A stretch of 63,414 nt of DNA from an uncultured Pelagibacteraceae bacterium (GTDB lineage Bacteria > Pseudomonadota > Alphaproteobacteria > Pelagibacterales > Pelagibacteraceae), in NCBI GenBank assembly GCA_902554315.1, contig CACDOF010000003.1, forward strand, positions 1-63,414, read 5' to 3'. The position numbers and the translations under genes were made by a program. Positions 9,913 through 32,318 of this stretch are shown piece after piece. The number at the start of each line of letters is the position of its first letter. Positions within the stretch are counted from its first letter, which is position 1. The notes below the pieces were generated by a model, which was not told the DNA's origin, did not search any database, and saw only the letters and a program-made list of their open reading frames with translations.

Positions 9913-9927
9913 CATACCTATGGTATG
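9913..9927. promoter_or_regulatory. 15-bp inverted repeat upstream of the small ORF
   Basis: Six-base arms CATACC and GGTATG are separated by TAT. The repeat lies 36 bases after sufA and 10 bases before the 56-codon ORF. It could be an operator or a small hairpin. It is too short for strong claims and does not match the NtrC or IscR consensus. Confidence 0.35.
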
Positions 9928-9937
9928 AATTAAGTTA

Positions 9938-10108: not shown

Positions 10109-10114
10109 ACTTAA

Positions 10115-15303: not shown

Positions 15304-16206
15304 ATGTCAGTAAAATTGGGAATTGCACCTATAGCTTGGTCTAATGACGATATGCCTGAATTAGGTTGCGATACCCCTTTAGAACAATGTTTATCTGAAG
15401 CAAGTGAGGCAGGTTTTATAGGAATTGAATCAGGTGGTAAATTTCCGAAAACATCAAATGAATTATTGCCAAAATTAAATAAATTTAATCTAAATTTATG
15501 TTCAGGATGGTATGGTGCTAATTTAAGAAATAAAACTGTTGAAGAAGAAAAACAGTCAATACAAGAACAATTGAAATTATTTAAAGAATGTAACGCACCA
15601 TGCATTGTATTTGCTGAAGTTTTTGGCTCAATACAAGGTGATCCAAATAAGAAACTTTCAACAAGGCCAAAAATGGATCTTGATGAATCTAAATCATATT
15701 ATAAAAAAATTTCTGAAATGGGAAAGTATTTAGAAGGAGAGGGAATGCCTTTAGCATATCATCATCATATGGGAACTGTGATAGAAACTCAAAAAGACAC
15801 TGAAATGTTACTAGAAAATACTGACGACAGTGTAAAATTAACTTTAGATACGGGGCACATGCTGTTTGCTCAAGGAGAGTCTATTAAATTTCTTAAAGAT
15901 TTTAGCGAAAGGGTCATGCATATACATTGTAAAGATATAAGAAAAAATGTTTTAGAAAAGTCACTAATAGAAGATCTAAGTTTTAGAGCAGCATTCTTGG
16001 AAGGAGCTTTTACTGTACCTGGAGATGGCTGTATTGACTATAAGCCTTTATTTGAAGTTCTAAAAAGCAATGATTATTCTGGATGGTTAGTTGTTGAAGC
16101 TGAACAAGATCCAAAAAAAGCAAATCCTCTAGAATATGCAAAGATAGGATATAAATATCTTACTGAAATTTTAAACAAGGTAGATATTAAAGTTTCACAA
16201 TCTTAG
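15304..16206 (+). CDS. iolE: Myo-inosose-2 dehydratase
   Basis: Dehydrates 2-keto-myo-inositol to 3D-(3,5/4)-trihydroxycyclohexane-1,2-dione, the second step of inositol degradation. It is a 300-residue xylose-isomerase-like TIM barrel. It begins 'MSVKLGIAPIAWSNDDMPEL', a strong IolE signature, and has 'CSGWYGANL' (66-74), a histidine cluster at 153-155, Asp182 in 'LDTGHMLF', His206/His208 in 'VMHIHCKD' and Glu265 in 'VVEAEQDP', the expected metal and substrate ligands. It is divergent from the iolG operon and its end overlaps the convergent dehydrogenase gene by 20 bases. Confidence 0.92.
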   Translation: MSVKLGIAPIAWSNDDMPELGCDTPLEQCLSEASEAGFIGIESGGKFPKTSNELLPKLNKFNLNLCSGWYGANLRNKTVEEEKQSIQEQLKLFKECNAPCIVFAEVFGSIQGDPNKKLSTRPKMDLDESKSYYKKISEMGKYLEGEGMPLAYHHHMGTVIETQKDTEMLLENTDDSVKLTLDTGHMLFAQGESIKFLKDFSERVMHIHCKDIRKNVLEKSLIEDLSFRAAFLEGAFTVPGDGCIDYKPLFEVLKSNDYSGWLVVEAEQDPKKANPLEYAKIGYKYLTEILNKVDIKVSQS

Positions 16207-17152
16207 ACTGGTCTATTTTATTTTCAAAAAAATCAATAATATTTTGAATAGTTTCAATTCCCATTCTAGTCATACATTCCTCAGTAAAAGCTGCTGCGTG
16301 AGGACTTAGGAATACTTTTTCATTTTTTAAAAGTAGATTGTTATCATCCGGTGGTTCTTTTTCAAAAACATCTATACCTGCTCCAAATATTAAATTTTCA
16401 TTTAATGCCTTGTCTAGATCAATTTCGTTTATTATTCCACCTCTAGCAGCATTAATAATTATACAATTTTTTTTCATTGTTTTTAATAATTCATAATTAA
16501 TTAAATTTTTTGTTTTTTCTGTTAGAGGCATATGTAGAGAAATCACATCCATAGTTTTTACAGCGTCTTCAAGATTTTCAACTTTTTTACCACCCATTGA
16601 CTCTATTTTTTCTTTTGAGACAAATGGATCAAAAACATAAACTTTCATTTCGAAACCAAAGCATCTTTTGATTAATGCTTGACCAATTCTTCCAAATCCA
16701 ACGATTAAAAAATTTTTTTTCCACAATTCAATTGTTTTTGGAAGTTTATTTCTATCTTTAAAATTTCCTTCTCTAACTGTCTTGTCAAACAAATCTTTTC
16801 TTTTTGAGATATAAAGTAAGTTAAACATTACATGTTCTGATACAGTTACAGCATTAGCATTTGCAGTAATTGCTATCTTAATATCTTTTTCCTTTGCGTA
16901 ATTTAAGTCAATATTGTCATATCCAACTCCGTGTCTCGAAACAATTTTTAAATTTTTTGCTTCTTTCATTACATCACCTGACAAATTTGCAATTCTAATT
17001 GATGCTCCATCACAATTTTGAATTTTTGCTTTAAGGTTTTCTTCTGAAGTGTCATCGGTTACATCAACTTCAAAATTAGGATGGTTTTTTATTAATTCCA
17101 TTCCTTTTTGGTGAACTTTTTGAATTATTAATATTTTCTTTTTTTCTGACAT
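16187..17152 (-). CDS. D-2-hydroxyacid dehydrogenase, PGDH-like
   Basis: A 321-residue NAD-dependent 2-hydroxyacid dehydrogenase. The NAD loop 'VGFGRIGQ' lies at 151-158 and the catalytic residues Arg237 ('NAARGGI'), Glu266 ('DVFEKEPP') and His285 ('LSPHAAA') are intact. The 'RHGVGYDNID' segment resembles phosphoglycerate and hydroxypyruvate dehydrogenases, but there is no ACT domain, so the serine-pathway SerA is unlikely. It lies between iolE and a TRAP operon and probably interconverts a 2-keto acid and a 2-hydroxy acid from the imported substrate. Confidence 0.82.
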   Translation of the reverse strand: MSEKKKILIIQKVHQKGMELIKNHPNFEVDVTDDTSEENLKAKIQNCDGASIRIANLSGDVMKEAKNLKIVSRHGVGYDNIDLNYAKEKDIKIAITANANAVTVSEHVMFNLLYISKRKDLFDKTVREGNFKDRNKLPKTIELWKKNFLIVGFGRIGQALIKRCFGFEMKVYVFDPFVSKEKIESMGGKKVENLEDAVKTMDVISLHMPLTEKTKNLINYELLKTMKKNCIIINAARGGIINEIDLDKALNENLIFGAGIDVFEKEPPDDNNLLLKNEKVFLSPHAAAFTEECMTRMGIETIQNIIDFFENKIDQSKIVKL

Positions 17153-17292: not shown

Positions 17293-17886
17293 GTGAATTT
17301 TACAATCAAATCATTATTATTAATCTTTAGATTTTTAGAAAATATAAATACTTTTATTCTTCGTATTGGACGTCAACTGGCATGGATTGCCATTTTATTA
17401 ATGGTAATAGTGATTATTATCCAAGTATTTTTTAGATATGTTTTAAATAATGCTCTTCCTTGGCCTGACGAAGTTGCCCGTTTTTTAATGTTATGGATGA
17501 CAGGGCTAATTGCTCCTTCCGCATATAGATGGGGTGGTTTTGTATCTATAGATATGCTTGAAAGATTTTTACCAAAAATTTTGGCGAACTTATTAATTTT
17601 TATAATTTTACTAATTTCATTAGCTGTTTTGTTTATAGGTTTCGAAATGGGATTAAAACATATAAATGCAGGTTGGATATTTAGCTCTTCTTCAATTAAA
17701 ATTCCTTTTTCTTTAATTGGAGGAAAAACAGAAGCAATGAAGTTAGCATGGATGTATATGTCTTTGCCGATTGGAATATTTCTTTTAATCTTGGTTAACA
17801 TTGAATTAATTTTAAGAAATATTTTATCAATTACTTCAAAAATTGATCTACCTTTAGATAAAGACAAAGAAAAATTAGAGGCTTAA
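17293..17886 (+). CDS. TRAP transporter small permease (DctQ type)
   Basis: A 197-residue, four-helix inner-membrane subunit of a TRAP transporter. The 'RYVLNNALPWPDEVARFLMLWMTG' region (two adjacent motifs) is the DctQ signature. The gene starts with GTG at 17293; no ATG upstream is in frame. The C-terminus is longer and more charged than average. It is the first gene of a Q-M-P operon and is followed by the large permease after one base. Confidence 0.9.
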   Translation: MNFTIKSLLLIFRFLENINTFILRIGRQLAWIAILLMVIVIIIQVFFRYVLNNALPWPDEVARFLMLWMTGLIAPSAYRWGGFVSIDMLERFLPKILANLLIFIILLISLAVLFIGFEMGLKHINAGWIFSSSSIKIPFSLIGGKTEAMKLAWMYMSLPIGIFLLILVNIELILRNILSITSKIDLPLDKDKEKLEA

Positions 17887-17887: not shown

Positions 17888-19177
17888 ATGTTAATATGGT
17901 TTTTACCTTTATTTCTAATTTTTTTATTAATAGGTATTCCAGTTTTTTTTAGTTTATTAGCAGCACCAGGAATTTTACTTTGGTTGAACAATCAAGGGAG
18001 TGATGCTGCAATGCTTTATAGAAATATTTATAATGGAATTGATAGCTTTCCTTTAATGGCAATTCCATTTTTTATGTTAGCAGGCGAGCTAATGAATAAA
18101 GGAGGAATTACATTAAGACTTGTTGAATTTAGTCAAGCCATGATGGGGCACTTGAGAGGAGGTTTGGCACATGTTAATATTTTAACTTCAATGTTGTTTG
18201 CAGGTCTGTCAGGATCAGCAGTTGCCGATACATCTGCAATAGGATCAATGTTAATACCAGCTATGGAAAAACAAGGTTACACAAAAAAATTTGCTGCAGC
18301 GATAACTGCCGCAAGTTCAGTTATAGGACCAATTATTCCACCGTCGGGAATAATGATAATTTATGCTTACGTCATGGGAGAAAGTGTTGCCGCATTATTC
18401 TTAGCTGGAATCGTACCAGGAATCTTAGTTGGAGTTAGTTTAATGGTAATGGTGAAATTTTTAGCAAACCGATACGATTTTCCTCCTGTAACAGCAAAAG
18501 CAAGTTGGAATGAAAGAGGTAAAGCATCTTTAAAAGCTTTTTTTCCTTTAATGACTCCAGTTATAATTTTAGGAGGAATTCTTGGAGGTATATTTACTCC
18601 CACTGAAGCATCAGCCGTAGCAGCAGCTTATGCATTATTTATTGGTTTATTTGTTTTAAAAACACTCTCATGGAATGAAATACCAAAAGTTTTCACTAAA
18701 GCAGCAATGGTTTCATCTGTAGTATTACTTTTAGTGGGTGCAGCGATGGCATTTAAAACAGTCGTAAGCCTATCTCATGCTCCAGAATACCTTGCTGAGT
18801 TTGTGCTTAGTCTAAGTAATAATCCTTACATATTATTATTTTTGATTAATATACTTTTATTCATCGTAGGAATGTTTCTTGATGCTGGTCCAGCAATAAT
18901 AATATTAGGTCCAATTTTAGGACCAGTTTTTGTTGAACTTGGAGTACATCCTGTACATTTTGCAATTATTATGTCAGTTAATTTAACTGTTGGGCTGGCA
19001 ACACCCCCGATGGGATTAGTTTTATTTGTTGCTTCTTCAGTTTCAGGTGAAAGAGTAGAAACAATAGCTAAGGCCATTTTACCCTTCTTAGCAGTAGAGG
19101 TTTTAGTTATATTTTTGATTACTTATTTTCCATCTATATCAATGACTATTCCTTTATTAACAGGCTTTGCAAAATAA
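17888..19177 (+). CDS. TRAP transporter large permease (DctM type)
   Basis: A 429-residue inner-membrane subunit with about 12 hydrophobic segments, the sodium-coupled translocation component. Diagnostic segments are 'PFFMLAGELMNKGGIT', 'SGSAVADTSAIGSMLIPAM', 'ASSVIGPIIPPSGIMIIYA' and 'VNLTVGLATPPMGLVLFV'. It lies one base after the small permease gene. The substrate is probably an organic or sugar acid by family; it cannot be read from the permease. Confidence 0.95.
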   Translation: MLIWFLPLFLIFLLIGIPVFFSLLAAPGILLWLNNQGSDAAMLYRNIYNGIDSFPLMAIPFFMLAGELMNKGGITLRLVEFSQAMMGHLRGGLAHVNILTSMLFAGLSGSAVADTSAIGSMLIPAMEKQGYTKKFAAAITAASSVIGPIIPPSGIMIIYAYVMGESVAALFLAGIVPGILVGVSLMVMVKFLANRYDFPPVTAKASWNERGKASLKAFFPLMTPVIILGGILGGIFTPTEASAVAAAYALFIGLFVLKTLSWNEIPKVFTKAAMVSSVVLLLVGAAMAFKTVVSLSHAPEYLAEFVLSLSNNPYILLFLINILLFIVGMFLDAGPAIIILGPILGPVFVELGVHPVHFAIIMSVNLTVGLATPPMGLVLFVASSVSGERVETIAKAILPFLAVEVLVIFLITYFPSISMTIPLLTGFAK

Positions 19178-19257
19178 TTAATAATTACAATATTTTCTTG
19201 CATTTCTATTATTAGACTCTTCATTATTAATTCAGTATATTTGTTTTTAAAATTAAC

Positions 19258-19264
19258 GGAGGGG
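19258..19264 (+). promoter_or_regulatory. Strong Shine-Dalgarno deciding the DctP start
   Basis: GGAGGGG lies 3 bases before the ATG at 19268. It marks that ATG, rather than the in-frame TTG at 19241, as the true start. Such strong ribosome binding sites are rare in this window and occur mainly before SBP genes. Confidence 0.8.
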
Positions 19265-19267
19265 AAA

Positions 19268-20326
19268 ATGTTATTTAACAAAATATTAAGATCATTTTTT
19301 TCGTTAGTATTGTTGTTTGGATTTTCGTTTTCAGCATTAGCTGCTGATTACAATCTAAGAATGACAATGAATTCTAATGATCAAGATGAAGACTATGACG
19401 GTTCAATAGTTTTTAAAAACTACGTTGAGTCAGCTTCGAATGGTAAAATTTCTGTAGAATTATTTGTTGGTACTCAACTATGTTCTAAAGGAGCTGAATG
19501 TTTACAAGGGGTATCTGATGGAAGTATAGACATTTATATTTCTACATCAGGAGGAGCAGCAGGAGTATTTCCTTATGTTCAAGTTCTTGATCTACCTTAT
19601 TTGATGTCTGACGACAGAATTGCTGAAGATGTTTTAAAGAGTGATTTTGTTAGAACAATGAGAAAGATGGCTTTAAAAGACTCGAATGACTCAATTAGAT
19701 TAATGACTATTGGAAATACAGGTGGTTGGAGAAATTTTGCAAACACAAAAAGACAAATTGCAAACCCATCTGATATGAAAGGTTTGAAAATTAGAACAGT
19801 AGTTGCGGATCTTCCACAGGAATTGGTTAGAGCGCTTGGTGCCTCACCAACTCCTATACCATGGCCAGAACTATTTACTTCGTTTCAAACTGGAGTAGTA
19901 GAAGGATCTAAAAATGGAATTACTGATATTATGAATATGAAGTTTCCAGATGCAGGTCTTAAATATGTTACTTTAGATGGACATGCTTATATGGGTGCAC
20001 TTTGGTGGATGAATAATGCTAAGTATCAATCTATGCCTGAAGATTTGAGAAAAGTTATTACTGACGGTTTTTATGCATTACAACAAGCAACTTTTGCTTC
20101 ACCAAAAAGAAAATCAATTAAAGCATATGAAGACTTTGTAGCTGGTGGTGGAAATTTATATGTTCCAACTCCAGATCAAAAGGCTGCATTTAAAGAAGCA
20201 GCTTCACCTGTTTATGATTGGTTTAAATCAAATGTTAAAGGTGGAAAAGAAATCTTTAATGCTTTGACTAAAGCAGTTAAGAGCGCTGAGAAAAGAGCCT
20301 CTTCAGATTATAAAAAAGATCTATAA
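19268..20326 (+). CDS. TRAP transporter solute-binding protein (DctP type)
   Basis: Periplasmic substrate-capture subunit of the TRAP system, 352 residues. An N-terminal signal peptide 'MLFNKILRSFFSLVLLFGFS' continues to an 'SALA/AD' cleavage site. The DctP motif 'DMKGLKIRT' carries the carboxylate-binding arginine, and 'LFTSFQTGVVEGSKNGITDI' is the usual ligand-site block. The ATG at 19268 is chosen because of the GGAGGGG ribosome binding site. It lies 90 bases after the large permease gene and is followed by a stem-loop at 20342-20363. Confidence 0.93.
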   Translation: MLFNKILRSFFSLVLLFGFSFSALAADYNLRMTMNSNDQDEDYDGSIVFKNYVESASNGKISVELFVGTQLCSKGAECLQGVSDGSIDIYISTSGGAAGVFPYVQVLDLPYLMSDDRIAEDVLKSDFVRTMRKMALKDSNDSIRLMTIGNTGGWRNFANTKRQIANPSDMKGLKIRTVVADLPQELVRALGASPTPIPWPELFTSFQTGVVEGSKNGITDIMNMKFPDAGLKYVTLDGHAYMGALWWMNNAKYQSMPEDLRKVITDGFYALQQATFASPKRKSIKAYEDFVAGGGNLYVPTPDQKAAFKEAASPVYDWFKSNVKGGKEIFNALTKAVKSAEKRASSDYKKDL

Positions 20327-20364: not shown

Positions 20365-20514
20365 TTATCTAAATGGATAAATCCAAGATTTGTAATCTTT
20401 TATTAAAATATGTGCTTTTTCAATTTGTTCAGGAGTCATTTTTTTAATTACTTCCTCCTGAGAAATAGCAGCATCAGGATCTCCACCTATAGCAGACAAA
20501 CCATACCAAGTGGA
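20365..20514 (-). pseudogene. Remnant of a Sel1-repeat protein C-terminus
   Basis: On the minus strand a 49-codon frame ends in TAA at 20365-20367. It reads 'STWYGLSAIGGDPDAAISQE' and then 'EVIKKMTPEQIEKAHILIKD', followed by 'YKSWIYPFR'. This is the layout of the last Sel1/TPR-like repeat and C-terminal cap ('...MTPEQIEKA...') of Sel1-repeat proteins. An in-frame stop lies immediately upstream (20515-20517) and there is no start or earlier repeats, so the rest of the gene has been lost. The plus-strand gene at 20559 begins 44 bases beyond it. The family assignment comes from pattern recognition only. Confidence 0.6.
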
Positions 20515-20558: not shown

Positions 20559-21641
20559 ATGAAAAAAATAAAATATGGAATTATTGGAGCTGGCACAATG
20601 GCTCGTGAACATATATTAAATATATCTTTAATTGATAATGCTGAAGTGGTTACTCTTTCAGATCCTCATGAAGATTCATTAAATCAGTGTAAAGAAATTC
20701 TTAAAACAAAAGTTTCCTGCTTTAAAAGTCATCAAGAAATGATTAAAGAAAATATTGTAGATGTGTATTTAATTTCGTCACCTAACTTTACTCATATAGG
20801 GATTTTAAAAGATGTTATTAAAACAAAGAAACATATATTAGTTGAAAAACCCCTATGCACTAACACAAGAGATTGTTTAGAAATAAAAAAACTTACAAAA
20901 GATTATCCATCAGTTTTTTGGACAGCAATGGAATATAGGTATATGCCGCCAGTTTCAAAATTTATTAAAGAAATTCATAACAATACAATTGGGGATTTAA
21001 AAACATTAACTATTAGAGAGCACCGATTTCCTTTTTTAAAAAAAATAAATGATTGGAATCGTTTTGAAAAAAATACTGGTGGAACATTAGTTGAAAAATG
21101 CTGTCATTTCTTTGATTTAATGCGTTTAATAGTTGGAAGCAATCCAATAAGCGTTTATGCAAGCGGTGGACAAGATGTCAATCATCTTGATGAAGAATAT
21201 AATGGAAAAAAACCAGACATAATTGATAATGCATATGTAATAGTAAACTTTGAGAATGGAGCTAGAAGTATGCTTGAGCTTTGTATGTTTGCTGAAAATT
21301 CAGATATGCAGGAAGAGCTAGTTGCAATTGGGCACAAAGGAAAAATAGAAACATCAGTTCCTTCAAATGATTCAGGTAAAATTGCTTCAAATTTAAGAAT
21401 TGGCATGAGGGATGGAAAAACTAAAATTGAAAATATTGAGGTCGATAAAAAAATTATTGAAGCTGGTCATCATCATGGATCAACTTATTATGAGCATTTA
21501 GCATTTTTAAATGCAATTAAAAATAATTCAGTTCCCGAAGTTTCTTTAAGTGATGGATTAATTGCAGTCGCAGTAGGAGAGGCAGCTGAAAAATCTATTA
21601 AACTTGGTAGATTAATAAACATAGAGGAAATTATTAATTAA
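20559..21641 (+). CDS. Gfo/Idh/MocA family oxidoreductase
   Basis: A 360-residue NAD(P)-dependent dehydrogenase. Rossmann loop 'YGIIGAGTMAREHI' is at the N-terminus, the catalytic lysine is in 'ILVEKPLCTN', and the active-site histidine block is 'GGTLVEKCCHFFDLMRL'. The C-terminal half is the usual alpha/beta substrate domain and ends 'HHHGSTYYEHLAFLNAIKNN'. It resembles inositol/sugar dehydrogenases, but the substrate is not identifiable. It is a monocistronic unit between the TRAP operon and a convergent 2-hydroxyacid dehydrogenase, with which it overlaps by 8 bases. Confidence 0.82.
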   Translation: MKKIKYGIIGAGTMAREHILNISLIDNAEVVTLSDPHEDSLNQCKEILKTKVSCFKSHQEMIKENIVDVYLISSPNFTHIGILKDVIKTKKHILVEKPLCTNTRDCLEIKKLTKDYPSVFWTAMEYRYMPPVSKFIKEIHNNTIGDLKTLTIREHRFPFLKKINDWNRFEKNTGGTLVEKCCHFFDLMRLIVGSNPISVYASGGQDVNHLDEEYNGKKPDIIDNAYVIVNFENGARSMLELCMFAENSDMQEELVAIGHKGKIETSVPSNDSGKIASNLRIGMRDGKTKIENIEVDKKIIEAGHHHGSTYYEHLAFLNAIKNNSVPEVSLSDGLIAVAVGEAAEKSIKLGRLINIEEIIN

Positions 21642-22557
21642 AAAACTCTATTGTTTTTTTAACTATAAAATCACTTACTCTTACATTTGACTCAGTTGTA
21701 ACACCAGAGATATGCGGTGTTAAAATACAATTCATCTCAGGGTTGATTTTTTTATAGAATTCACTCTTTATTGGTTCGTTTTCAAAAACATCTAAAGCAA
21801 ATCCAGAAATTAAATTTTCATTATACGCATCAATTAAATCATTTTCGTTAACCACAGTTCCTCTAGATGTATTAATAATAATAGGTTTTTTTTTCATTTG
21901 AGAAAATGATGATTTGTTAATTAAATTTTTTGTTTCCTCAGTTAAAGGAAGATGTAAAGATATTATGTCTGATCTTTCATATATATGAGCCAGATTTGAT
22001 AATTCGGCATTAATTTGCTTATCATTTAATTCTTTTAGATAAGGATCATAAGCTAATATTTTTAATCCATTTTTTAAACCGTACTCAGCAACTTTTTTTC
22101 CAATTATTCCAAAACCTATCACGCCTAAATATTTCTGTTTTAATTCTGCTGATTTAATAGCTGTCCTTGGCCAATCTCCTTTTATAGTGCCAGCATGAAA
22201 CATAGGGATTTTTTTTATTAAAGATAATGAAGAAGAAAGAACGTATTCTGCAACTGAGTCTGCGTTCATGCCTGTTGCTGGTTGAACGTGAATATCATTA
22301 TTTTTACAATATTCTGTATCGATATTATCCAAACCAACACCCAACCTACCAATGAATTTTAAATTATTTGCGTTATCTAAAATTTTTGAGTTTACTAAAG
22401 TTTTATTTCTAACAATCAACCCATCGCAGTCTTTAATTTTTTTTTCTAACTCTTTATTATTTTCACATAAATTCTCATCATATTTAACCTCAAATTTTTT
22501 TTTTAAATTATTTAAGCTATCTTGATTTATAAATTCTGTAATTAAAATTTTAGTCAT
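21634..22557 (-). CDS. 2-hydroxyacid dehydrogenase, SlcC/sulfolactate-dehydrogenase-like
   Basis: A 307-residue D-2-hydroxyacid dehydrogenase fold with NAD loop 'IGFGIIGKKVAEYG' (147-160) and catalytic Arg232 ('NTSRGTVV'), Glu261 ('DVFENEP') and His282 ('LTPHISGVT'). The combination 'IVRNKTLV', 'RLGVGLDNID' and the C-terminal 'LTPHISGVTTESNVRVS' resembles the SlcC group, whose studied member oxidises (S)-sulfolactate. It is the last gene of a minus-strand operon with an aldolase and an aldehyde dehydrogenase. (S)-sulfolactate, another 2-hydroxy acid or a tartronate-like acid is possible; substrate confidence is low. Confidence 0.8.
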   Translation of the reverse strand: MTKILITEFINQDSLNNLKKKFEVKYDENLCENNKELEKKIKDCDGLIVRNKTLVNSKILDNANNLKFIGRLGVGLDNIDTEYCKNNDIHVQPATGMNADSVAEYVLSSSLSLIKKIPMFHAGTIKGDWPRTAIKSAELKQKYLGVIGFGIIGKKVAEYGLKNGLKILAYDPYLKELNDKQINAELSNLAHIYERSDIISLHLPLTEETKNLINKSSFSQMKKKPIIINTSRGTVVNENDLIDAYNENLISGFALDVFENEPIKSEFYKKINPEMNCILTPHISGVTTESNVRVSDFIVKKTIEFFN

Positions 22558-22613
22558 TAATTTTATTAGCTATTAAACTAAAAAGAATTTGATAATTTTT
22601 TAAATCAGATAGA

Positions 22614-23408
22614 TTAATAGGTAGCCGAACCCTCTTTTTTAGAAATAGAACCTTTCATTTTATCAACCGTTGATTTTGCTCCAGTGCTCATAGATCTAAG
22701 GTCAGATGCAATAGTTACAAAATTAAAACCTTTTTCAATCATTTTAGTTGCATATTCTGGTGTACCATTGTGTATTCCTGCAAAAATTTTATTTTTTTTT
22801 GCATGTTCTAAAATTCTTAAAATTTCAGAATAAGCTTTAGTATTTTCTGGTTTGTCAAAACCTGGTTTTTCTCCTATAGCTAAACTTAAATCTGCTGGTC
22901 CGATATAAATTCCATCAACTCCAGGAGTAGACATAATTTCATCTAATTTTTCTAATGACTCTTTAGTTTCAATCATAGCTATTTTTAATATTTCATCGTT
23001 AGCATGATCAGGATAATCTGAGCCACCATAAATTAGACCTCTTATTGGTCCAAAGCTTCTATATCCTTTTGGAGGATACATGCATGCTTTAACAAATTTT
23101 TCAGCCTCTTCTTTATTGCTAACCATAGGGCATATGACACCATAAGACCCTGCGTCTAATATTTTCATTATTTGTCCTGGCTCATTCCAATTTACTCTAG
23201 CAAGTGGCGTAACATCGGTAGTTGATATAGTTTGTAAAATAGGTAAGGCATTTGAGTAATCTACAAGTCCATGCTGCATATCTATTGTTAGCGAGTCCCA
23301 GCCACAATGAGCCATAGCTTCTGCTGAAGCAGTACTAGGTATTGCCAACCAACCATTAATGACAGGTTTACCTTCAGCCATCATTTGCTTAATTTTATTT
23401 TTTCTCAT
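22614..23408 (-). CDS. HpcH/HpaI-family 2-keto-3-deoxy-acid aldolase
   Basis: Class II aldolase that splits 2-keto-3-deoxy acids to pyruvate and an aldehyde. The 264-residue TIM barrel shows the base His46 ('TIDMQHGLVDY'), Arg71 ('PLARVNWNEPG'), metal ligands Glu147 ('AMIETKE') and Asp173 ('IYIGPADLSLAIG'). These match the KDR/HHED/KDSG aldolase family. Its start codon shares one base with the ALDH stop, so aldolase and aldehyde oxidation are coupled. The aldehyde could be lactaldehyde, glycolaldehyde, succinate semialdehyde or sulfolactaldehyde. Confidence 0.88.
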   Translation of the reverse strand: MRKNKIKQMMAEGKPVINGWLAIPSTASAEAMAHCGWDSLTIDMQHGLVDYSNALPILQTISTTDVTPLARVNWNEPGQIMKILDAGSYGVICPMVSNKEEAEKFVKACMYPPKGYRSFGPIRGLIYGGSDYPDHANDEILKIAMIETKESLEKLDEIMSTPGVDGIYIGPADLSLAIGEKPGFDKPENTKAYSEILRILEHAKKNKIFAGIHNGTPEYATKMIEKGFNFVTIASDLRSMSTGAKSTVDKMKGSISKKEGSATY

Positions 23409-24850
23409 TAATAATTTATAGCGAAGTGAGTATATTTAATATTTAAGTAATCTTTTATTGCCATAGAACCACCTTCTCTACCATAACCAGTTTGTTTAAT
23501 TCCTCCGAAAGGAACTTCAGCAAAAGCTACAGCAGGAGTATTAACTGCGCATGTTCCGGTCTCCATTTTTTCAGAGACTTTATGGGCATTTTCAAGTGAA
23601 TTTGTGTAAATATAACTTGCTAAACCTAAATCATTGTCATTCGCTCTTTTAACAACTTCATCTCTGTCTTTAAATGTTAATATTGGAACTAAAGGACCAA
23701 AAGGCTCTTCTTTAATGATTGTAAAATTATCTTTAACTTCATCAAATATTGTAGGTTCATAAAAATAACCTTTATTAAAACCAGAAGGTCTTTTTCCGCC
23801 ACATAAAACTTTGGCTCCCTCTTGTTTTGTTTTTTCTGCTAATGCTTCTACTTCATGCAATCTTTTTTCAGTAGTTAAAGGTCCTAATATAGTATCTTTA
23901 TCCATACCATTACCAATTTTTAATTTAGTAACTTTATCAACCAAACTTTTTGCAAATTCATCTTTTTTTGTTTCATGAATATAAAATCTTGCTGGTGATA
24001 TACATACTTGTCCATTATTTCTAAATTTTGCAGTAATTGCCATGTCAGTAACTTTATTAATATCTACATCATCAAATACTATAAAAGGGGAGTGGCCACT
24101 TAATTCCATCGTAACTCTTTGTACTTTTTCTGCTGCTTGTTTTAAAATTAATTTTCCAACTCTTGTTGATCCTGTTATTGAAACTTTTTTTATTATATCA
24201 GATGAAATTAGTTGAGAAGAAATTTTGGCCGGGTCTCCTGACAATAAATTTACTACACCTGGGGGGACTCCAGCTTCATTAACTATATTCATTAACTCCA
24301 TAACACTTCCTGGAGTAATTACATCTGGTTTACAAATAACAGAACATCCTGCTGCTAAAGCAGTGGAAATTTTTCTTGACGCCAAAACTATTGGGAAATT
24401 CCAAGGAATTAAACCTGCAACGACACCAACAGGTTCGTATTTCACATACATTCTTGTATTTTCAAATCGACTTTCAACTATTTGTCCATAAATTCTTTTC
24501 GTTTCTTCTGAGTTCCATTCAAAAATATCTGCTCCTCCACCAACTTCTCCAGCAGCTTCTGACAAAGGTTTTCCTACTTCTAAAGTTAACCATTTTGCTA
24601 AAATATCTTTTTTATCTCTCATGAGGTCTGCAATTTTTCTTATAATTTTAGATCTTTCCCAAGGTGGAGTATTTCGCCAAACTTCCAATCCTTTCTCTGC
24701 CGATTTCAAAGCTTTATTAACATCTTCCTCACCAGCTTTTGAAGCCTTGCCAATCACTTCTTCAGTAGCAGGATTAATTACATCGTATGTTTCATTATTT
24801 TGTGACTGTTGCCACTTTCCGTCTATGAATTGTCCAAATTTGCTATACAT
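23408..24850 (-). CDS. NAD(P)-dependent aldehyde dehydrogenase, GabD-like
   Basis: A 480-residue ALDH with complete catalytic residues: Asn151 ('PWNFPIVLA'), Lys174 ('CKPDVITP'), Glu249 ('MELSGHSPFIVF') and nucleophile Cys283 ('NNGQVCISPARF'). The family's usual ELGG is ELSG here. Overall similarity is to succinate-semialdehyde and related short-aldehyde dehydrogenases, not to the CoA-acylating MmsA/IolA type. It is the first gene of the operon with the HpcH/HpaI aldolase and SlcC-like dehydrogenase, transcribed away from iolD across a 55-base shared promoter region. Confidence 0.88.
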   Translation of the reverse strand: MYSKFGQFIDGKWQQSQNNETYDVINPATEEVIGKASKAGEEDVNKALKSAEKGLEVWRNTPPWERSKIIRKIADLMRDKKDILAKWLTLEVGKPLSEAAGEVGGGADIFEWNSEETKRIYGQIVESRFENTRMYVKYEPVGVVAGLIPWNFPIVLASRKISTALAAGCSVICKPDVITPGSVMELMNIVNEAGVPPGVVNLLSGDPAKISSQLISSDIIKKVSITGSTRVGKLILKQAAEKVQRVTMELSGHSPFIVFDDVDINKVTDMAITAKFRNNGQVCISPARFYIHETKKDEFAKSLVDKVTKLKIGNGMDKDTILGPLTTEKRLHEVEALAEKTKQEGAKVLCGGKRPSGFNKGYFYEPTIFDEVKDNFTIIKEEPFGPLVPILTFKDRDEVVKRANDNDLGLASYIYTNSLENAHKVSEKMETGTCAVNTPAVAFAEVPFGGIKQTGYGREGGSMAIKDYLNIKYTHFAINY

Positions 24851-24905: not shown

Positions 24906-26750
24906 ATGAAAAAAATAAAGCTAACTTGTGCACATGCAATTATAAAACATCTAATCTCTCAAAAAATTTTAATTAACGGTAAAAAAGAACCTTTATTTGC
25001 AGGAGCATTTGGTATATTTGGACATGGCAATGTAGCCTGCATTGGACAAGCCTTAGAAGAAAATCAAGATCAATTACCAACTTATAGAGGTCACCATGAA
25101 CAAAATATGGCTTTAACTGGAGTTGCGTATGCGAGAGCAAAAAGAAGAAAACAGATTTTTGTTGCAACCAGTTCTGTGGGTCCAGGGTCTACAAACATGG
25201 TAACTGCTGCTGCAGTTGCAATGAGCAATAGATTGCCAATATTATTTTTACCAGGTGATGTTTATGCCAATAGAATGCCTGACCCAGTTCTTCAACAGGT
25301 TGAAAACTTTGGAAATCCAGGAATAACTCAGAATGATGCATTTAAACCGGTAACAAAATATTTTGACAGAATAACTAGACCTGAACAAATTTTACAAACA
25401 TTACCTCAAGCAATCCAAACAATGCTGGACCCAGCTGATTGTGGACCGGCATGTATTTCTATATGTCAAGATGTTCAAGGTGAAGTTTACGATTATCCTG
25501 AGGAATTCTTTAAAGAAATAGTCCATAATATCAGAAGACCAAGACCCGATGATTTTCAAATAAAAGAAGCAGCGGAGAAAATTAAGAATTCAAAAAACCC
25601 AATTATAATCTCAGGTGGAGGTGTCTTTTATTCTGATGCAATGGATGAACTAGGAACATTTGCTGTAAAGCATAATATTCCTGTAACTCAAACAGTTATG
25701 GGATATTCTACAATGAAAAAAGACCACTCACATTTTTTAGGTCCAATAGGAGGATTAGGAGGAAAGGCTGCAAATAATTTTGCTAAAAAAACTGATCTTG
25801 CAATAGCCATTGGAACTAAATTAGCAGATTTTACAACTGGCTCTTGGGCAAATTTTGAAAATCCAAACTTTTCATTAATTAATATAAATGTAGCTAGATT
25901 TGATGCGAATAAACATATGGCCCAATCAGTTATTGGAGACGCTAAAGTTTCTCTAACGGAATTATCACAAGCACTAGGTGACTGGAAGGCCCCAGATGAT
26001 TGGTATAAAAAATCAAGAGATGAACTTAAATCTTGGAATGAATATATTGATAAAGAAAGTGGACCAACTAACCAGGAACTTCCAAGTTACGCTCATGCCG
26101 TCGGAGCAATTTATAGAAATTCAGATCCAACTGATATAGCCGTAACAGCAGCAGGAGGTCTAGTTGGTGAAGTTGTTCAAGTCTGGAGACCAAAAGAACT
26201 TAATACCCATGAAACTGAATGGGGTTTTAGTTGTATGAGCTATGAAATCTCTGGTGCATTAGGAATTAAAATGGCAAATCCAGATAAAGAAGTAATAGCT
26301 TTTGTTGGAGACGGTTCATATTTACTTAATAATTCAGACATTTATTCATCAGTAATAACAAATAATAAATTAATAATAATCGTATGCGATAATGGTGGTC
26401 ATGCTGTAATTAATAGGCTTCAATTATTTAAGGGAGGGAAAGAGTTTAATTGTTTGTTTGAAAGTTCAAAAGCCCCAAACCTATCCTCAGTGAATTTTGC
26501 TCAACACGCTGAGAGCATGGGAGCAAAATCTGAACAAGTCTCATCAATATCTGATTTGGAAGATGCATTTAAAAGAGCTAAAAAATCTGATGTTACATAT
26601 GTCATTTCAATAAAAACACATTCCTATCAATGGTTGGAAGGTTCAGCTTATTGGGAAAGTCCAACTCTAGAAATTCCAAAAACTAAAGAAAATGAAGAAG
26701 CTTTAAAAATGCACAAAGAAGGAAAAGCAAAACAAAGACAAGGGGTTTAA
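24906..26750 (+). CDS. iolD: Trihydroxycyclohexane-1,2-dione acylhydrolase
   Basis: Thiamine-diphosphate enzyme that hydrolytically opens the inositol-derived ring to 5-deoxy-D-glucuronate. At 614 residues it matches IolD length. Diagnostic blocks: 'FGIFGHGNVACIGQALEE' (35-52), cofactor-activating Glu65 in 'YRGHHEQNMAL', 'VATSSVGPGSTNMVTAAAVA', 'LPGDVYANRMPDPVLQQVE' and the TPP/Mg motif 'VGDGSYLLNNSDIYS' followed by 'CDNGGHAVI'. 'EWGFSCMSYEISGALG' is IolD-specific and separates it from acetolactate synthase and sulfoacetaldehyde acetyltransferase. It heads a plus-strand operon with a Gfo dehydrogenase, a 2-hydroxyacid dehydrogenase and an ABC transporter. Confidence 0.93.
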   Translation: MKKIKLTCAHAIIKHLISQKILINGKKEPLFAGAFGIFGHGNVACIGQALEENQDQLPTYRGHHEQNMALTGVAYARAKRRKQIFVATSSVGPGSTNMVTAAAVAMSNRLPILFLPGDVYANRMPDPVLQQVENFGNPGITQNDAFKPVTKYFDRITRPEQILQTLPQAIQTMLDPADCGPACISICQDVQGEVYDYPEEFFKEIVHNIRRPRPDDFQIKEAAEKIKNSKNPIIISGGGVFYSDAMDELGTFAVKHNIPVTQTVMGYSTMKKDHSHFLGPIGGLGGKAANNFAKKTDLAIAIGTKLADFTTGSWANFENPNFSLININVARFDANKHMAQSVIGDAKVSLTELSQALGDWKAPDDWYKKSRDELKSWNEYIDKESGPTNQELPSYAHAVGAIYRNSDPTDIAVTAAGGLVGEVVQVWRPKELNTHETEWGFSCMSYEISGALGIKMANPDKEVIAFVGDGSYLLNNSDIYSSVITNNKLIIIVCDNGGHAVINRLQLFKGGKEFNCLFESSKAPNLSSVNFAQHAESMGAKSEQVSSISDLEDAFKRAKKSDVTYVISIKTHSYQWLEGSAYWESPTLEIPKTKENEEALKMHKEGKAKQRQGV

Positions 26751-26759: not shown

Positions 26760-27917
26760 ATGAATAAAATTTTTAAAGTTGGCTTAATTGGTTGTGGACA
26801 TATTTCTGAAACATATTTTAGAGCACAGGAATACTTTAATAACATTAGAATTATTAAATGTGCAGACCTGAACATGGATGCTGCAAAAAAATGTGCAATT
26901 CATTACAATATAGAAGCTGTAACTGTAGAACAGCTTTTAAATGATAAGGAAATTGAAATAGTTTTAAATCTTACAATTCCTAAAGCTCATTTTGAAATAT
27001 CAAAAATGGCTTTAGAAAATGGCAAACACTCTTACACAGAAAAACCCATGGCAATTAATTTCGAAGATGGAAAAAAACTAGCTGAAATCGCAAAAAACAA
27101 AAAATTATATATTGGTAATGCACCAGATACTTTTTTAGGAGGAGGTATACAAAAAACTAGAGAGTTGATTGATAATGGAGTTATTGGAGATATCAAATTA
27201 GGTAATGCTATTTTTGCTTATCCGGGAATTCAATCTTATCATCCAAACCCAGAACCTTGGTTTGCTATAAATGAAGGAGGTCCTGTCATTGATATGGGTC
27301 CTTATTACTTAACTGCTTTAGTAAATTTATTGGGACCTGCTAAACAGGTACAAGGAAGATGTACAAAAGTTTTTAAAGAAAGAGAAATCGGGATTGGATC
27401 AAAAAAAGGTCAAAAATTTAAAGTTGAAACTCCAACAACTTACCTTGCAACTATACAATTTGAAAATGAGTGTATTATTCAGATAACATTATCTTTTGAT
27501 GTAGTTGCCCATCAAAGAAATCATATAGAGCTTTATGGCAACAAAGGTTCTATTATAGTTCCAGATCCAAACATGTTTGGTGGTTCAGCCTTTGTTTCAG
27601 TTACTTCTGGTGGAAATTGGGGAGAACATAAAACAGATAATATGCCTCTTGGAAAAATAAATATTAAAAGTCAAAGTTCCAGAGCAAATGAGTCTCCAAC
27701 TAACGCCAATTATAGGGGAGTAGGTCTTTCAGAAATGGCCTATGCTATTCAAAATAATTTAGAAAATAGATGTAATGGAGAATTATCTTTGCACGTTTTA
27801 GATATAATTGACTCTACGATGAAAGCATCACAAACAGGAATTCCACAAGAAATTAAAACCACATGTAAAAAACCAAAACCATTTACTCTTGAAGAGATAA
27901 AAAAAATTATGAATTAA
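26760..27917 (+). CDS. Gfo/Idh/MocA oxidoreductase downstream of iolD
   Basis: A 385-residue dehydrogenase with Rossmann loop 'VGLIGCGHISETYF', catalytic lysine in 'SYTEKPMAINF', the block 'NAPDTFLGGGIQKTRELIDN' and active-site 'GGPVIDMGPYYLTALVNLLG'. This 'APDTFLGGGIQ' subgroup is often found in inositol and polyol gene clusters. It starts 9 bases after the iolD stop, so it is co-transcribed. The enzyme may oxidise an inositol isomer or a keto-inositol; this is inference from neighbours. Confidence 0.82.
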   Translation: MNKIFKVGLIGCGHISETYFRAQEYFNNIRIIKCADLNMDAAKKCAIHYNIEAVTVEQLLNDKEIEIVLNLTIPKAHFEISKMALENGKHSYTEKPMAINFEDGKKLAEIAKNKKLYIGNAPDTFLGGGIQKTRELIDNGVIGDIKLGNAIFAYPGIQSYHPNPEPWFAINEGGPVIDMGPYYLTALVNLLGPAKQVQGRCTKVFKEREIGIGSKKGQKFKVETPTTYLATIQFENECIIQITLSFDVVAHQRNHIELYGNKGSIIVPDPNMFGGSAFVSVTSGGNWGEHKTDNMPLGKINIKSQSSRANESPTNANYRGVGLSEMAYAIQNNLENRCNGELSLHVLDIIDSTMKASQTGIPQEIKTTCKKPKPFTLEEIKKIMN

Positions 27918-28977: not shown

Positions 28978-29727
28978 ATGTCACCAGAAAATAATCTACT
29001 ATTAGAAGCAAAAGGAATAACAAAATATTTTGGTACTATTACTGCATTAGAAAATGTGGATTTAAAAATACATGCTGGAGAATGCCTTGGAGTTGTTGGA
29101 GATAATGGAGCGGGTAAAACTACTTTGATGAAGGTTCTTTCAGGGTTATACAAACCAAGTTCTGGCTCATTATTTTTTGAAGGTAATGAAAAAATACTTG
29201 AAAGTCCAAGAGATTCACAAAATTTAGGATTAGAAATGGTCTATCAAGACCTTGCTCTTGCTGGAAATCTTCCAATTGGAGAAAATATTTTTTTAGGAAG
29301 AGAACCAACCAAAAATTTAGGATTGTTAAAATTTTTGGATTTTAAAAAAATTAAGGAGTTAACAGAGGAACATTTAGGTAAATTAAAAATTAATGTTAAA
29401 AGCGCTGATCAAAAAGTCGAAGAACTATCTGGAGGACAGAGGCAAGCTGTAGCAATTGCAAGATCAACTGCATTTAATGCAAAAGTGGTAATTATGGATG
29501 AACCTACAGCAGCATTAGCAATTAAAGAAGTTGGAAAAGTACTTGATCTTATTAATAGTTTAAAAAAAACTGGTGTTGGAGTAATTGTTATTAGTCATAG
29601 AATGGATGATATATTTTATGTTTGTGATCGAGTTATGGCTTTATTCCAAGGTACAAATTTTGCTGAAGCAGAACTATCAAAGACTTCCAGAGATGAAGTT
29701 ATCGGATGGATAATGGGAAAAAAATAA
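28978..29727 (+). CDS. Sugar ABC transporter ATPase, single-domain FrcA-like
   Basis: A 249-residue ATPase of the ribose/fructose (CUT2) type. Walker A 'GDNGAGKTT' 41-49, signature 'LSGGQ' 150-154 and Walker B 'VIMDEPTAAL' 171-180 are intact. RbsA-type ATPases normally carry two fused domains of ~500 residues; this one has a single domain, like rhizobial FrcA, and must act as a homodimer. The ATG at 28978 is chosen over an in-frame upstream start at 28918 that would overlap the previous gene and add a non-homologous extension; TATATT at 28962-28967 may be an internal -10. Confidence 0.9.
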   Translation: MSPENNLLLEAKGITKYFGTITALENVDLKIHAGECLGVVGDNGAGKTTLMKVLSGLYKPSSGSLFFEGNEKILESPRDSQNLGLEMVYQDLALAGNLPIGENIFLGREPTKNLGLLKFLDFKKIKELTEEHLGKLKINVKSADQKVEELSGGQRQAVAIARSTAFNAKVVIMDEPTAALAIKEVGKVLDLINSLKKTGVGVIVISHRMDDIFYVCDRVMALFQGTNFAEAELSKTSRDEVIGWIMGKK

Positions 29728-29729
29728 TA

Positions 29730-30743
29730 ATGGAAGAAAAAGATAAAAAAAAAGAAAGTCTATATGTAAAGTTGATTCCATATTTTGAGAGGTATGGCAT
29801 TCTTCTTTTGTTGGTAATAATGATCTTGGTAATGCATATTTTGCAGCCTGATGTATTTTTATCTTGGAGAAATATAACTAACGTCTTTAAACAAATATCA
29901 TGGCAATCAATGTTAGCATTGGGTGTGTTTATGGTAATTGTAACTGCAGGAATAGATTTATCAGTCGGTTCAATAATGATGCTTTCGTTAATGGTTTTGG
30001 CTATCGTAGCTAAAGCTGGAGCACCATGGTTTGTTGTTATTCTGGTTCCTTTATTTGCAGGATTTGTATGTGGACTAATTAATGGACTTGGAATAACGCT
30101 TTTAAGAATGCCGCATCCATTTATAATGACATTGGGTACATTATATATATTCAGAGGAACAGGAAATCTCATATCAGGAGGAACTCCTATAAGTGGTTTT
30201 ACTGATGAAGTTAGATATCTGGGTCATGGAAGGATTGATCTCACCTGGTTAGGATTAGAAAAATCCCAATATCTTCCAGTGAGTTTAGTTTTAATTGCAA
30301 TTGTATATATAATTTTTTGGGCTTTTATGAATCATACAAGAACTGGTAAGTGGATATATGCCATTGGAGGAAATCCTAATGCAGCAAGAGCATCAGGAAT
30401 TAATGTAAATAAAATTTTAGTAATAGTTTATTCTCTTTGTGGATTCTTATCTGGCATAGGAGCATTGATTTTAGCAGGAAGAGCAGACTCAGGATATCCA
30501 AATGCAGGTCTTCAATCAGAATTAGATGCTATAGCAGCTTGCATCATTGGAGGAGCTAGTTTTTTTGGGGGAAGAGGAACAGTCTTAGGAGTTTTTGCTG
30601 GCGTTATGATAATGGGAATATTAAGAAATGGTCTTAACTTAATGGATGTCAGTTCATTTTGGCAACAAGTCTTAATTGGTTCAATTATTGTTTTAGCAGT
30701 TTATATTGATGTTTTAAGAAGAGAACTTGGAACCAGAAAGTAA
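29730..30743 (+). CDS. Sugar ABC transporter permease, RbsC/FrcC-like
   Basis: A 337-residue inner-membrane permease with eight to ten hydrophobic segments. The CUT2 signature is clear: 'VTAGIDLSVGSIMMLSLMV', 'LRMPHPFIMTLGTLYIFRG', 'YAIGGNPNAARASGI' and 'AACIIGGASFFGGRGTVLG'. The ATG at 29730, two bases after the ATPase stop, is preferred to one at 29706 that lies inside the ATPase gene. It works with the ATPase before it and the binding protein after it. Confidence 0.92.
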   Translation: MEEKDKKKESLYVKLIPYFERYGILLLLVIMILVMHILQPDVFLSWRNITNVFKQISWQSMLALGVFMVIVTAGIDLSVGSIMMLSLMVLAIVAKAGAPWFVVILVPLFAGFVCGLINGLGITLLRMPHPFIMTLGTLYIFRGTGNLISGGTPISGFTDEVRYLGHGRIDLTWLGLEKSQYLPVSLVLIAIVYIIFWAFMNHTRTGKWIYAIGGNPNAARASGINVNKILVIVYSLCGFLSGIGALILAGRADSGYPNAGLQSELDAIAACIIGGASFFGGRGTVLGVFAGVMIMGILRNGLNLMDVSSFWQQVLIGSIIVLAVYIDVLRRELGTRK

Positions 30744-30858
30744 TTACACGCAAAAGTTGTTATTACCTTAATTAGAACAATTCTCATTAACTGTTGAATT
30801 TTTTTCAAAAATTATATTTAATTAAGTTAATTAAATTTAATTATAGAGGGAAAAAAAT

Positions 30859-31782: not shown

Positions 31783-31802
31783 TCTTTAGAATACTAAGAT
31801 TT

Positions 31803-31835
31803 AAAGGGTGGAATTTTATTCCACCCTTTTTTTTT
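31803..31835 (+). terminator. Intrinsic terminator after the CUT2 binding protein
   Basis: A perfect 11-bp stem (31803-31813 with 31819-31829, core GGGTGG/CCACCC) and a 5-base loop are followed by nine T residues (31827-31835). This is the cleanest Rho-independent terminator in the window. It separates the transporter transcript from the FucU/ribokinase genes. Confidence 0.9.
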
Positions 31836-31841
31836 ATGTAA

Positions 31842-31853
31842 TATAATCTTTTA
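31842..31853 (+). promoter_or_regulatory. Consensus -10 element giving a leaderless fucU-like mRNA
   Basis: A perfect TATAAT (31842-31847) lies 7 bases after the preceding terminator and 6 bases before the ATG at 31854. No Shine-Dalgarno sequence is possible in this space. The -35 would fall inside the terminator stem. This is the best-supported leaderless start in the window. Confidence 0.55.
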
Positions 31854-32315: not shown

Positions 32316-32318
32316 GAA

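Follow-up and report, generated by a model that had tools for sequence, protein, structure and literature searches.

Which compound would a marine bacterium degrade with an aldolase, an aldehyde dehydrogenase (ALDH) and a 2-hydroxyacid dehydrogenase encoded side by side? The question is raised by a stretch that we call the window, bases 1 to 63,414 of contig C3 (CACDOF010000003.1) of an uncultured Pelagibacteraceae (SAR11) bacterium; the genome is 65% complete and comprises 958 kb in 44 contigs. A preliminary description of the window placed the three genes at 21634-24850, and they are indeed found there, in one reading direction. It further took them for one operon and for a possible part of a sulfoglycolytic Entner-Doudoroff (sulfo-ED) pathway for sulfoquinovose. 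We suggest something different, with a probability of roughly 60%: between 13 and 28 kb the window would be a composite, an inositol module with a sulfoquinovose island inside it. This suggestion rests on gene content, on IolD and IolE proteins that pass their cut-offs, on conserved contacts in a predicted sulfoquinovosidase (SqgA), on co-inheritance and on positions in trees. In other words, what we see are probably genes for the uptake and cleavage of a sulfur sugar common in plants and algae, lodged in what resembles an unusual shortcut inositol pathway, as predicted from sequence. SAR11 bacteria are among the most numerous marine heterotrophs. According to one estimate, 10 billion tonnes of sulfoquinovose are produced every year (PMC12890257). 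If the prediction is true, a SAR11 sulfoquinovosidase would alter the view of who opens this sulfur pool.

The arrangement of the genes is compact. The GabD-like ALDH (23408-24850, minus strand; PF00171, 549.5 bits, cut-off 23), the HpcH/HpaI-family aldolase (22614-23408, minus strand; PF03328, 111.2 bits, cut-off 25) and the D-2-hydroxyacid dehydrogenase, HADH_2 (21634-22557, minus strand; PF02826/PF00389), form one co-directional run, in which the ALDH and aldolase genes share a single base and a gap of 56 bases lies between aldolase and HADH_2. The start of the ALDH gene lies 55 bases from the divergent iolD, and at the opposite end sqgA (20559-21641, plus strand) overlaps the end of HADH_2 by 8 bases. 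Of the operon that was claimed, the co-directional run stands; the single functional unit does not, since the aldolase and ALDH on one side and HADH_2 on the other appear to belong to two modules.

The first of these modules is that of inositol. The gene iolD, for trihydroxycyclohexane-1,2-dione acylhydrolase (24906-26750, plus strand), scores 793.7 bits with TIGR04377 (cut-off 715), and iolE, for myo-inosose-2 dehydratase (15304-16206, plus strand), scores 394.5 bits with TIGR04379 (cut-off 290). Adjoining iolE is HADH_1 (16187-17152, minus strand), a counterpart of the dehydrogenase of the inositol cassettes described below, with 32-38% identity and 206-246 bits to nine of nine cassette dehydrogenases. 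Further along are a candidate IolG-like inositol dehydrogenase (13129-14145, minus strand; 40% identical to IolG of Paracoccus ferrooxidans and 37% to that of Ruegeria) and a Gfo/Idh/MocA oxidoreductase (14130-15272, minus strand; 36% identical to the Gfo proteins of Paracoccus and Rhizobium inositol clusters). A second Gfo/Idh/MocA gene adjoins iolD (26760-27917, plus strand); its match to the IolG family is weak (61.2 bits against 355), and such a gene is also found beside iolD in other SAR11 loci.

The aldolase and ALDH are inherited together with IolD. We surveyed 150 related genomes, the source genome included, with a threshold of E <= 1e-40 for the aldolase and the curated cut-off for IolD; the aldolase was found in 36 and IolD in 33. 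Every one of the 33 genomes of the genus with IolD also has the aldolase, and by the printed coordinates the two genes share a contig at a distance of about 1.5 kb (one copy is cut by a contig end). The genus counts 58 further genomes, of which two have the aldolase, in both cases near contig ends. Fisher's test gives p of about 1e-22, which is no true probability because the SAR11 genomes are relatives and the counts made among them are not independent. The named SAR11 loci discussed here are the best 80 of 461 relatives, and all 80 are Pelagibacteraceae contigs; loci with too short flanks were dropped before counting, 66 and 52 of the 80 being kept. The ALDH was seen in 77 of the 80 and iolD in all 71 with enough flank. 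The co-inheritance of aldolase and ALDH with IolD holds even where sqgA is absent.

Comparison of gene orders suggests where the module ends (labels in G denote genomes, those in L stretches of them). The complete genome G082 has the order iolD, ALDH, aldolase, a block of PanB/PanE-like genes, HADH_2, sqgA, transporter genes of the tripartite ATP-independent periplasmic (TRAP) type, HADH_1 and iolE. In G319 and G086, which have no island, the order is aldolase, HADH_1, iolE, and HADH_1 is directly downstream of the aldolase in these two and in G078. From these orders we take HADH_1 and iolE as the far end of the inositol module; the island, made of the TRAP genes, SqgA and HADH_2, would then sit between the aldolase and HADH_1. 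As a separate observation, the site between aldolase and HADH_1 (22557-22614 in the window) resembles an insertion hotspot across SAR11 loci. It is empty in G319, G086 and G078, holds sqgA, TRAP genes and slcC in roughly every second locus whose flank is long enough, and in others (L025) holds a Gfo/TIM-barrel/CUT1-like set; a PanB/PanE-like/2OG-Fe/PhyH block is often present there.

What might an aldolase and an ALDH do next to IolD? The canonical inositol pathway runs through IolG, E, D, B, C, J and A. SAR11 shares with it an IolG-like protein, IolE, IolD and, elsewhere in the genome, methylmalonate-semialdehyde dehydrogenase (MMSDH); 13 of the 16 genomes examined for MMSDH, among them the source genome, have a protein that scores over its cut-off. 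The difference lies in the lower half: IolB and IolC are not detected, and the ALDH, a 2-hydroxyacid dehydrogenase and the HpcH/HpaI aldolase stand beside IolD instead. IolB (PF04962, IolB/KduI) was found in 0 of the 36 aldolase-carrying SAR11 genomes, two of which are single-contig and 99% complete; the same search gave matches in 6 of 14 control genomes, and a run on 13 genomes gave none. IolC passed its cut-off in none of the 36 (best score 99.7 bits against 300; IolJ was not searched for). Because of these absences, the ALDH, aldolase and 2-hydroxyacid dehydrogenase seem to take the place of the usual lower half of inositol breakdown.

The chemistry that we propose follows from the same absence of IolB and IolC. 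The product of IolD is 5-deoxyglucuronate. The ALDH would oxidise its aldehyde end to give 5-deoxyglucarate, a C6 diacid, and HADH_1, as a D-2-hydroxyacid dehydrogenase, would oxidise the C2 hydroxyl of the latter to a 2-keto diacid. This would be split by the aldolase into hydroxypyruvate and malonic semialdehyde, and malonic semialdehyde could be converted to acetyl-CoA by the genome-encoded MMSDH. In the set compared, the closest aldolases (54-56%) come from galactarate/glucarate operons, where the aldolase acts on C6 keto diacids. The best matches of the aldolase in the PDB are HpcH/HpaI aldolases, one group of entries also being named 'hydroxyketoacid aldolase' (200 bits).

The same set of genes is met outside SAR11. 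A tblastn search of plasmids matched the aldolase in 751 records (40 listed) and IolD in 196 (60 listed); by the printed coordinates, iolD lies within 15 kb of the aldolase in 20 of the 40 listed records. In nine plasmids that we opened, iolD is accompanied by ALDH, aldolase and hydroxyacid dehydrogenase genes in a row, with iolE seen in eight. They belong to Rhizobium leguminosarum Vaf-108, Paracoccus ferrooxidans, Pantoea BRR-3P, Qingshengfaniella, R. daejeonense, two Shinella, P. alcaliphilus and Klebsiella aerogenes. Within the stretches viewed, only the two Paracoccus have iolB and iolC beside the set. Four other aldolase matches that were inspected comprise two galactarate/glucarate operons, one gene without related neighbours and one unannotated record. 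Canonical iolD with iolC, iolB and iolJ is found in Ruegeria TM1040 and in seven stretches of other genomes. We also note a pyruvate carboxylase gene after the inositol cassette in P. ferrooxidans (L107) and Rhizobium daejeonense (L132), which may hint at end products. A large survey of inositol genes demanded at least three of iolB, iolC, iolD and iolE (PMC9430895), and therefore clusters with iolD and iolE alone would be overlooked under that rule.

Other alphaproteobacteria with IolD were compared as well. Of 11 chosen, five (G440, G213, G237, G454 and G182; stretches L112, L122/L160, L123/L161, L124/L145 and L159) show no IolB and no IolC over cut-off. Each of the five has the aldolase, which is beside iolD in G440, probably so in G213, and elsewhere in the rest. 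Among 387 alphaproteobacterial genomes, in lists compiled by hand, the aldolase occurs in 16 of 25 that have IolD and lack IolB, in 10 of 36 that have both (p 0.008 for these two frequencies) and in 60 of 326 without IolD.

Several observations weigh against the inositol part of our suggestion, and we gather them here. Nine of the 25 genomes with IolD and no IolB have no aldolase at the threshold used, ten genomes with both IolD and IolB carry the aldolase as well, and of the 26 genomes in this class-level sample that hold IolD together with the aldolase, just 5 have them within about 3 kb of each other. Identity of the SAR11 enzymes to those of the cassettes is 39-43% for the ALDH and 45-51% for the aldolase, and within the set compared the SAR11 aldolase shows a higher identity, 54-56%, to those of galactarate/glucarate operons. 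HADH_1 is not joined to the cassette dehydrogenases with support in the tree, where the fork is open. No ALDH gene lies between the neighbouring iolD and aldolase in G157, G440 and G510; the neighbourhood of G147, for which the evidence is thin, shows an aldolase alone. Finally, the source genome is only 65% complete. The SAR11 and plasmid IolD-linked aldolases form separate groups in the tree, with further cases in G157 and G510, so the pairing of aldolase and iolD may have arisen more than once.

The second module begins with sqgA. The preliminary description saw no sulfoquinovosidase, and this has to be revised: the gene at 20559-21641 is predicted to encode a GH188-type NAD+-dependent sulfoquinovosidase. 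Its product scores 354.5 bits with ArSqgA (8qc3; 47% identity, 167/353), 352.9 bits with FlSqgA (8qc2) and 331.1 bits with 8zn9 ('Oxidoreductase, putative'), after which the scores drop to 110.6. Both 8qc3 and 8qc2 are GH188 sulfoquinovosidases with published contact residues (PMC10755693). All eight ligand contacts are kept (Lys107, Tyr136, Arg166, Leu170, Lys172, Glu189, His193 and His321), including the sulfonate triad of Arg166, Lys172 and the backbone of Leu170, both in the window and across all 33 SAR11 rows; these represent 32 distinct loci, G082 being present twice. By similarity and contact residues the protein is a predicted GH188 SqgA. It differs from ArSqgA and FlSqgA in setting: the SAR11 gene stands beside SlcC and an inositol operon, with no complete known sulfoquinovose pathway around it. 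The Gfo/Idh genes at 13129, 14130 and 26760 were considered as sulfoquinovosidases and rejected, each being without several of the eight contact residues. GH31 was absent from all 14 genomes searched.

Next to sqgA lie the TRAP genes: dctQ for the small subunit (17293-17886, plus strand; PF04290, 46% identical to Ruegeria TM1040), dctM for the large subunit (17888-19177, plus strand; 67-80% to TRAP genes of three SqgA clusters) and dctP for the binding protein (19241-20326, plus strand; PF03480). DctP is 81, 72 and 67% identical to those of the SqgA clusters of Ruegeria TM1040, Paracoccus seriniphilus and Roseivivax THAF40, respectively. In three other SAR11 loci viewed in detail the island consists of sqgA, a cytochrome c peroxidase gene, a TPR-protein gene and the TRAP genes, and the peroxidase is present in 32 of the 33 sqgA rows, the stretch of the exception ending at that point. 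Ruegeria TM1040 has peroxidase and TPR genes beside the same TRAP genes (53% and 84% identity, respectively). The Zymomonas SqgA record has no TRAP genes beside it. The window itself has lost the peroxidase gene and retains a 48-residue remnant of the TPR-protein gene (20368-20511, minus strand; 48 residues at 96% identity with the intact L032 gene), which is evidence of a deletion inside the island.

HADH_2 is the third part of the island. Its assignment to the SlcC type, made in the preliminary description from the ending LTPHISGVTTESNVRVS, is borne out: the ending is present, and in the tree the SAR11 HADH_2 groups at 93/98 with dehydrogenases of slcC context, from suyAB-like clusters, apart from the inositol dehydrogenases. 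Seven plasmid records contain a HADH_2 homologue at E <= 1e-45, and all seven also hold SuyB, five of them within about 3 kb. In the three that were opened, the dehydrogenase is immediately followed by an Ldh-family (ComC-like) gene; all three also contain suyA/B-like genes, and two contain hpsN/O/P-like genes. The motif TPHI(A/S)GVTxESNxRVS is common to HADH_2 and the three slcC-cluster dehydrogenases and is not found in the nine cassette dehydrogenases. Thus HADH_2 is, as judged by its grouping with dehydrogenases of suyAB/comC-like clusters, a candidate S-sulfolactate dehydrogenase. It shares with SlcC of the suyAB-slcC-comC clusters this clade, 37-39% identity and the motif, and differs in that the SAR11 gene adjoins sqgA and not suyAB or comC. 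Its distribution follows that of sqgA: of the 66 SAR11 loci in which the sequence runs on for over 4.5 kb beyond the aldolase, HADH_2 is present in 33, of which 31 have sqgA, and absent in 33, of which none has sqgA. In the latter 33, HADH_1 is in reach in 20 and neither dehydrogenase in 13.

Elsewhere in the same genome, contig C7 encodes Xsc (968 bits, cut-off 676) and AprA (990 bits, cut-off 642), together with what we take from context to be SuyA/SuyB-like proteins and a TauE-like transporter; for SuyA/SuyB, NCBIfam gave only a sub-cut-off match to galactarate dehydratase. The genome does hold sulfonate-processing genes, on another contig than the window, so that their absence, which the preliminary description would have counted as refuting its idea, is not observed. 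In the stretch L164 (C7:14000-31000), positions 3935-11295 hold AprA and Xsc with genes that by eye are aprB-, dsrC-, tauE-, suyB- and suyA-like, and we read it as a sulfonate and sulfite oxidation locus. The names AprB, DsrC, PanE, SmoC, ComC, HpsN/O/P and SwHKA are likewise assigned by us from context, and not from a model. Use of 2,3-dihydroxypropane-1-sulfonate (DHPS) by SAR11 has been reported (PMC11131964).

If the island works as its parts suggest, the TRAP transporter would import sulfoquinovosyl glycosides and SqgA would release sulfoquinovose from them. A C3 sulfonate would then be fed into a sulfolactate route, with SlcC encoded here and Xsc, AprA and the SuyAB-like proteins elsewhere in the genome. 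Sulfoquinovose use by this SAR11 genome seems to us likely on these predictions.

Taking both modules together, a broader proposal may be ventured, which we offer tentatively. It comprises two undescribed abilities, namely a lower half of inositol breakdown that needs no kinase, used in Alpha- and Gammaproteobacteria, in which ALDH, a D-2-hydroxyacid dehydrogenase and an HpcH/HpaI aldolase would replace IolB, IolC and IolJ, and the use of sulfoquinovose by SAR11 through a GH188 island shared with Roseobacter; the inositol aldolase and ALDH might even do double duty on products of sulfogluconate. In a literature search outside which lay most subscription journals and all preprints, what was located on iolD with HpaI aldolase and inositol describes no such pathway, and no publication was found that joins sulfoquinovosidase with Pelagibacter. 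The titles and abstract openings located on sulfoquinovose with SAR11 or Pelagibacter describe no SAR11 sulfoquinovose use, and the main text of the GH188 paper names neither SAR11 nor Pelagibacter (PMC10755693).

How much of the sulfo-ED idea can be kept? With the sequence of the sulfoquinovose dehydrogenase of Pseudomonas putida (PMC12133307) as a query, we found plasmid operons of sulfo-ED type in Shinella HZN7, Rhizobium WSM4643 and Microvirga ossetica. They contain a dehydratase, aldolase, lactonase, short-chain dehydrogenase/reductase (SDR) and alpha-glucosidase, and two of the three also contain an ALDH; what we take there for the 2-keto-3-deoxy-6-sulfogluconate (KDSG) aldolase and the sulfolactaldehyde dehydrogenase are so labelled from context. 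A fourth match, in Acinetobacter, has only a lactonase and an SDR. The window aldolase is 32-34% identical to the sulfo-ED aldolases, compared with 45-51% to those of the inositol sets. For the window ALDH the values are 39% and 39-43%, so that identity alone is not decisive. In the trees, the sulfo-ED aldolases group with GarL and YfaU of Escherichia coli, apart from all IolD-linked ones (100/100, with a long-branch warning), and E. coli GabD is joined by both sulfo-ED ALDHs (99/97), the SAR11 ALDH being placed elsewhere. The sulfonate-binding arginines proposed for RlGabD could not serve as a guide, because the same positions bind carboxylate in succinate semialdehyde dehydrogenase (PMC10599462). 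Given their identities, their clades and their co-inheritance with IolD, the claim that the aldolase and ALDH are sulfo-ED enzymes is not supported, and we rejected the trio as a dedicated sulfo-ED operon on the grounds of clades and co-inheritance.

The SDR, galM, SMP-30, IlvD/Edd and CUT1-type genes that the preliminary description listed at 39-52 kb are all present. As enzyme classes they do match the sulfo-ED pathway; as an operon they look mostly like another sugar or sugar-acid route. The IlvD/Edd sugar-acid dehydratase (45718-47493, plus strand; PRK13017, 996.8 bits, cut-off 684) is 36% identical to sulfo-ED dehydratases, and its best PDB match, at 856 bits, is named galactonate dehydratase. 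The SMP-30/gluconolactonase (51128-52039, plus strand; PF08450, 226.3 bits) is 26-31% identical to sulfo-ED lactonases. SDR2 (43213-43974, plus strand; NF053674, 304 bits, below the cut-off of 400) is a XylB-like sugar dehydrogenase with Met in place of the sulfonate Arg. SDR3 (44944-45693, plus strand), whose role is uncertain, has the equivalent of Arg152 of the P. putida enzyme, for which the pocket has been described (PMC12133307). It has Ala at position 154, where one of the three sulfo-ED SDRs is itself without Arg. A candidate FAH-family hydrolase of 2,4-didehydro-3-deoxy-sugar acids (50228-51070, plus strand; NF053535, 397.7 bits, below the cut-off of 500) is also encoded. Because of this hydrolase-like gene, and because a copy of the operon in G004 occurs with no sqgA at the locus (SDR3 and galM were not found in that copy), the 43-52 kb operon looks mostly like a non-phosphorylating sugar-acid route.

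A start of sulfo-ED type is nevertheless possible, because an SDR with the sulfonate-binding Arg travels with sqgA. In a scripted count in which stretches of one contig were merged, an SDR with the Arg152 equivalent lies beside pdxA2 in 12 of 14 sqgA-positive and 0 of 7 sqgA-negative readable loci (p 3e-4, the genomes being related); the two exceptions without such a neighbour are L024 and the window. Neither kind of Arg152-type SDR falls in the characterised sulfoquinovose dehydrogenase clade. To call these SDRs sulfoquinovose dehydrogenases by phylogeny would be thin, the Arg being present and the clade not matched.

Could the aldolase and ALDH then serve two pathways, cleaving KDSG and oxidising sulfolactaldehyde as well, or even as their main task? 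The sulfoquinovose dehydrogenase (of SDR type), the lactonase and the dehydratase would in that case come from the 43-52 kb operon or from elsewhere. This is the idea of the preliminary description with the sulfoquinovosidase added. We consider it unlikely, though it fares best among the alternatives. The enzyme classes agree with the sulfo-ED pathway as reviewed, SqgA and SlcC flank the aldolase, which SlcC follows so closely in the window, and the window, which has no SDR next to pdxA2, has SDR3 with the same Arg, a gene not found in the operon of the sqgA-negative G004. Like the operons of Shinella HZN7, Rhizobium WSM4643 and Microvirga ossetica and the P. putida SQ1 pathway, the window has these same classes, and it also has a sulfoquinovosidase and an SDR with the Arg152 equivalent. 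It differs in several respects: its aldolase, ALDH and SDR fall outside the sulfo-ED clades, its dehydratase and lactonase are only distantly related, and the genes are not in one operon. Many of the 66 loci (the 20 with HADH_1 and the 13 with neither dehydrogenase) have ALDH, aldolase and iolD without sqgA. G004 has the dehydratase and lactonase operon with no sqgA at this locus, and in the 352-444 kb viewed of the sqgA-positive G082 that operon was not seen, save for SDR2-like and galM-like genes. The evidence does not amount to a full sulfo-ED route here.

Another possibility, which we regard as improbable, is sulfolytic: SqgA and the TRAP transporter would have arrived with a sulfoquinovose monooxygenase pathway of the Roseobacter kind and would still work for it, and SlcC would act separately on sulfolactate or DHPS. 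The SqgA clusters of Ruegeria TM1040, Roseivivax THAF40 and Paracoccus seriniphilus, of sulfo-SMO type by their gene classes, contain an LLM-class monooxygenase, aldo/keto reductase and flavin reductase, and the parts of the SAR11 island are close to theirs: SqgA, the same TRAP transporter (DctP 67-81%) and, in TM1040, the peroxidase and TPR genes. However, the SAR11 island is without the monooxygenase, the reductases and the GntR gene, with SlcC instead; in the window and 106 SAR11 stretches (some overlapping, and short of whole genomes) no monooxygenase or flavin reductase homologue was found and just three weak aldo/keto reductase matches. An ordinary aldarate or sugar-acid pathway, in which a glucarate-like acid would be the substrate of aldolase and ALDH and iolD an incidental neighbour, is suggested by the two nearest aldolases in named records, which sit in galactarate/glucarate operons with garD, gudD or glxR, but is rendered quite doubtful by the link to iolD in SAR11, other Alphaproteobacteria and Gammaproteobacteria and by more than one aldolase lineage next to iolD.

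Returning to the composite of inositol module and sulfoquinovose island, a few neighbouring genes may be mentioned. From 47493 to 51070 the window has GhrB-like, tartronate-semialdehyde-reductase-like and SDR4 genes and the FAH-family gene, which is 2,4-didehydro-3-deoxy-rhamnonate-hydrolase-like; they suggest a non-phosphorylating deoxy-sugar or sugar-acid pathway, and FAH homologues (60%) are also found near iolD in G319 and G279. The ribokinase gene at 32319 was considered as IolC and rejected, as it scores 94.8 bits against 300 and passes the ribokinase model instead (307.3 bits, cut-off 299.65). Together with a ribose-type ABC transporter and an RbsD/FucU-like protein it forms the stretch after iolD, at 28978-33233, which may have a role in cyclitol or pentose uptake.

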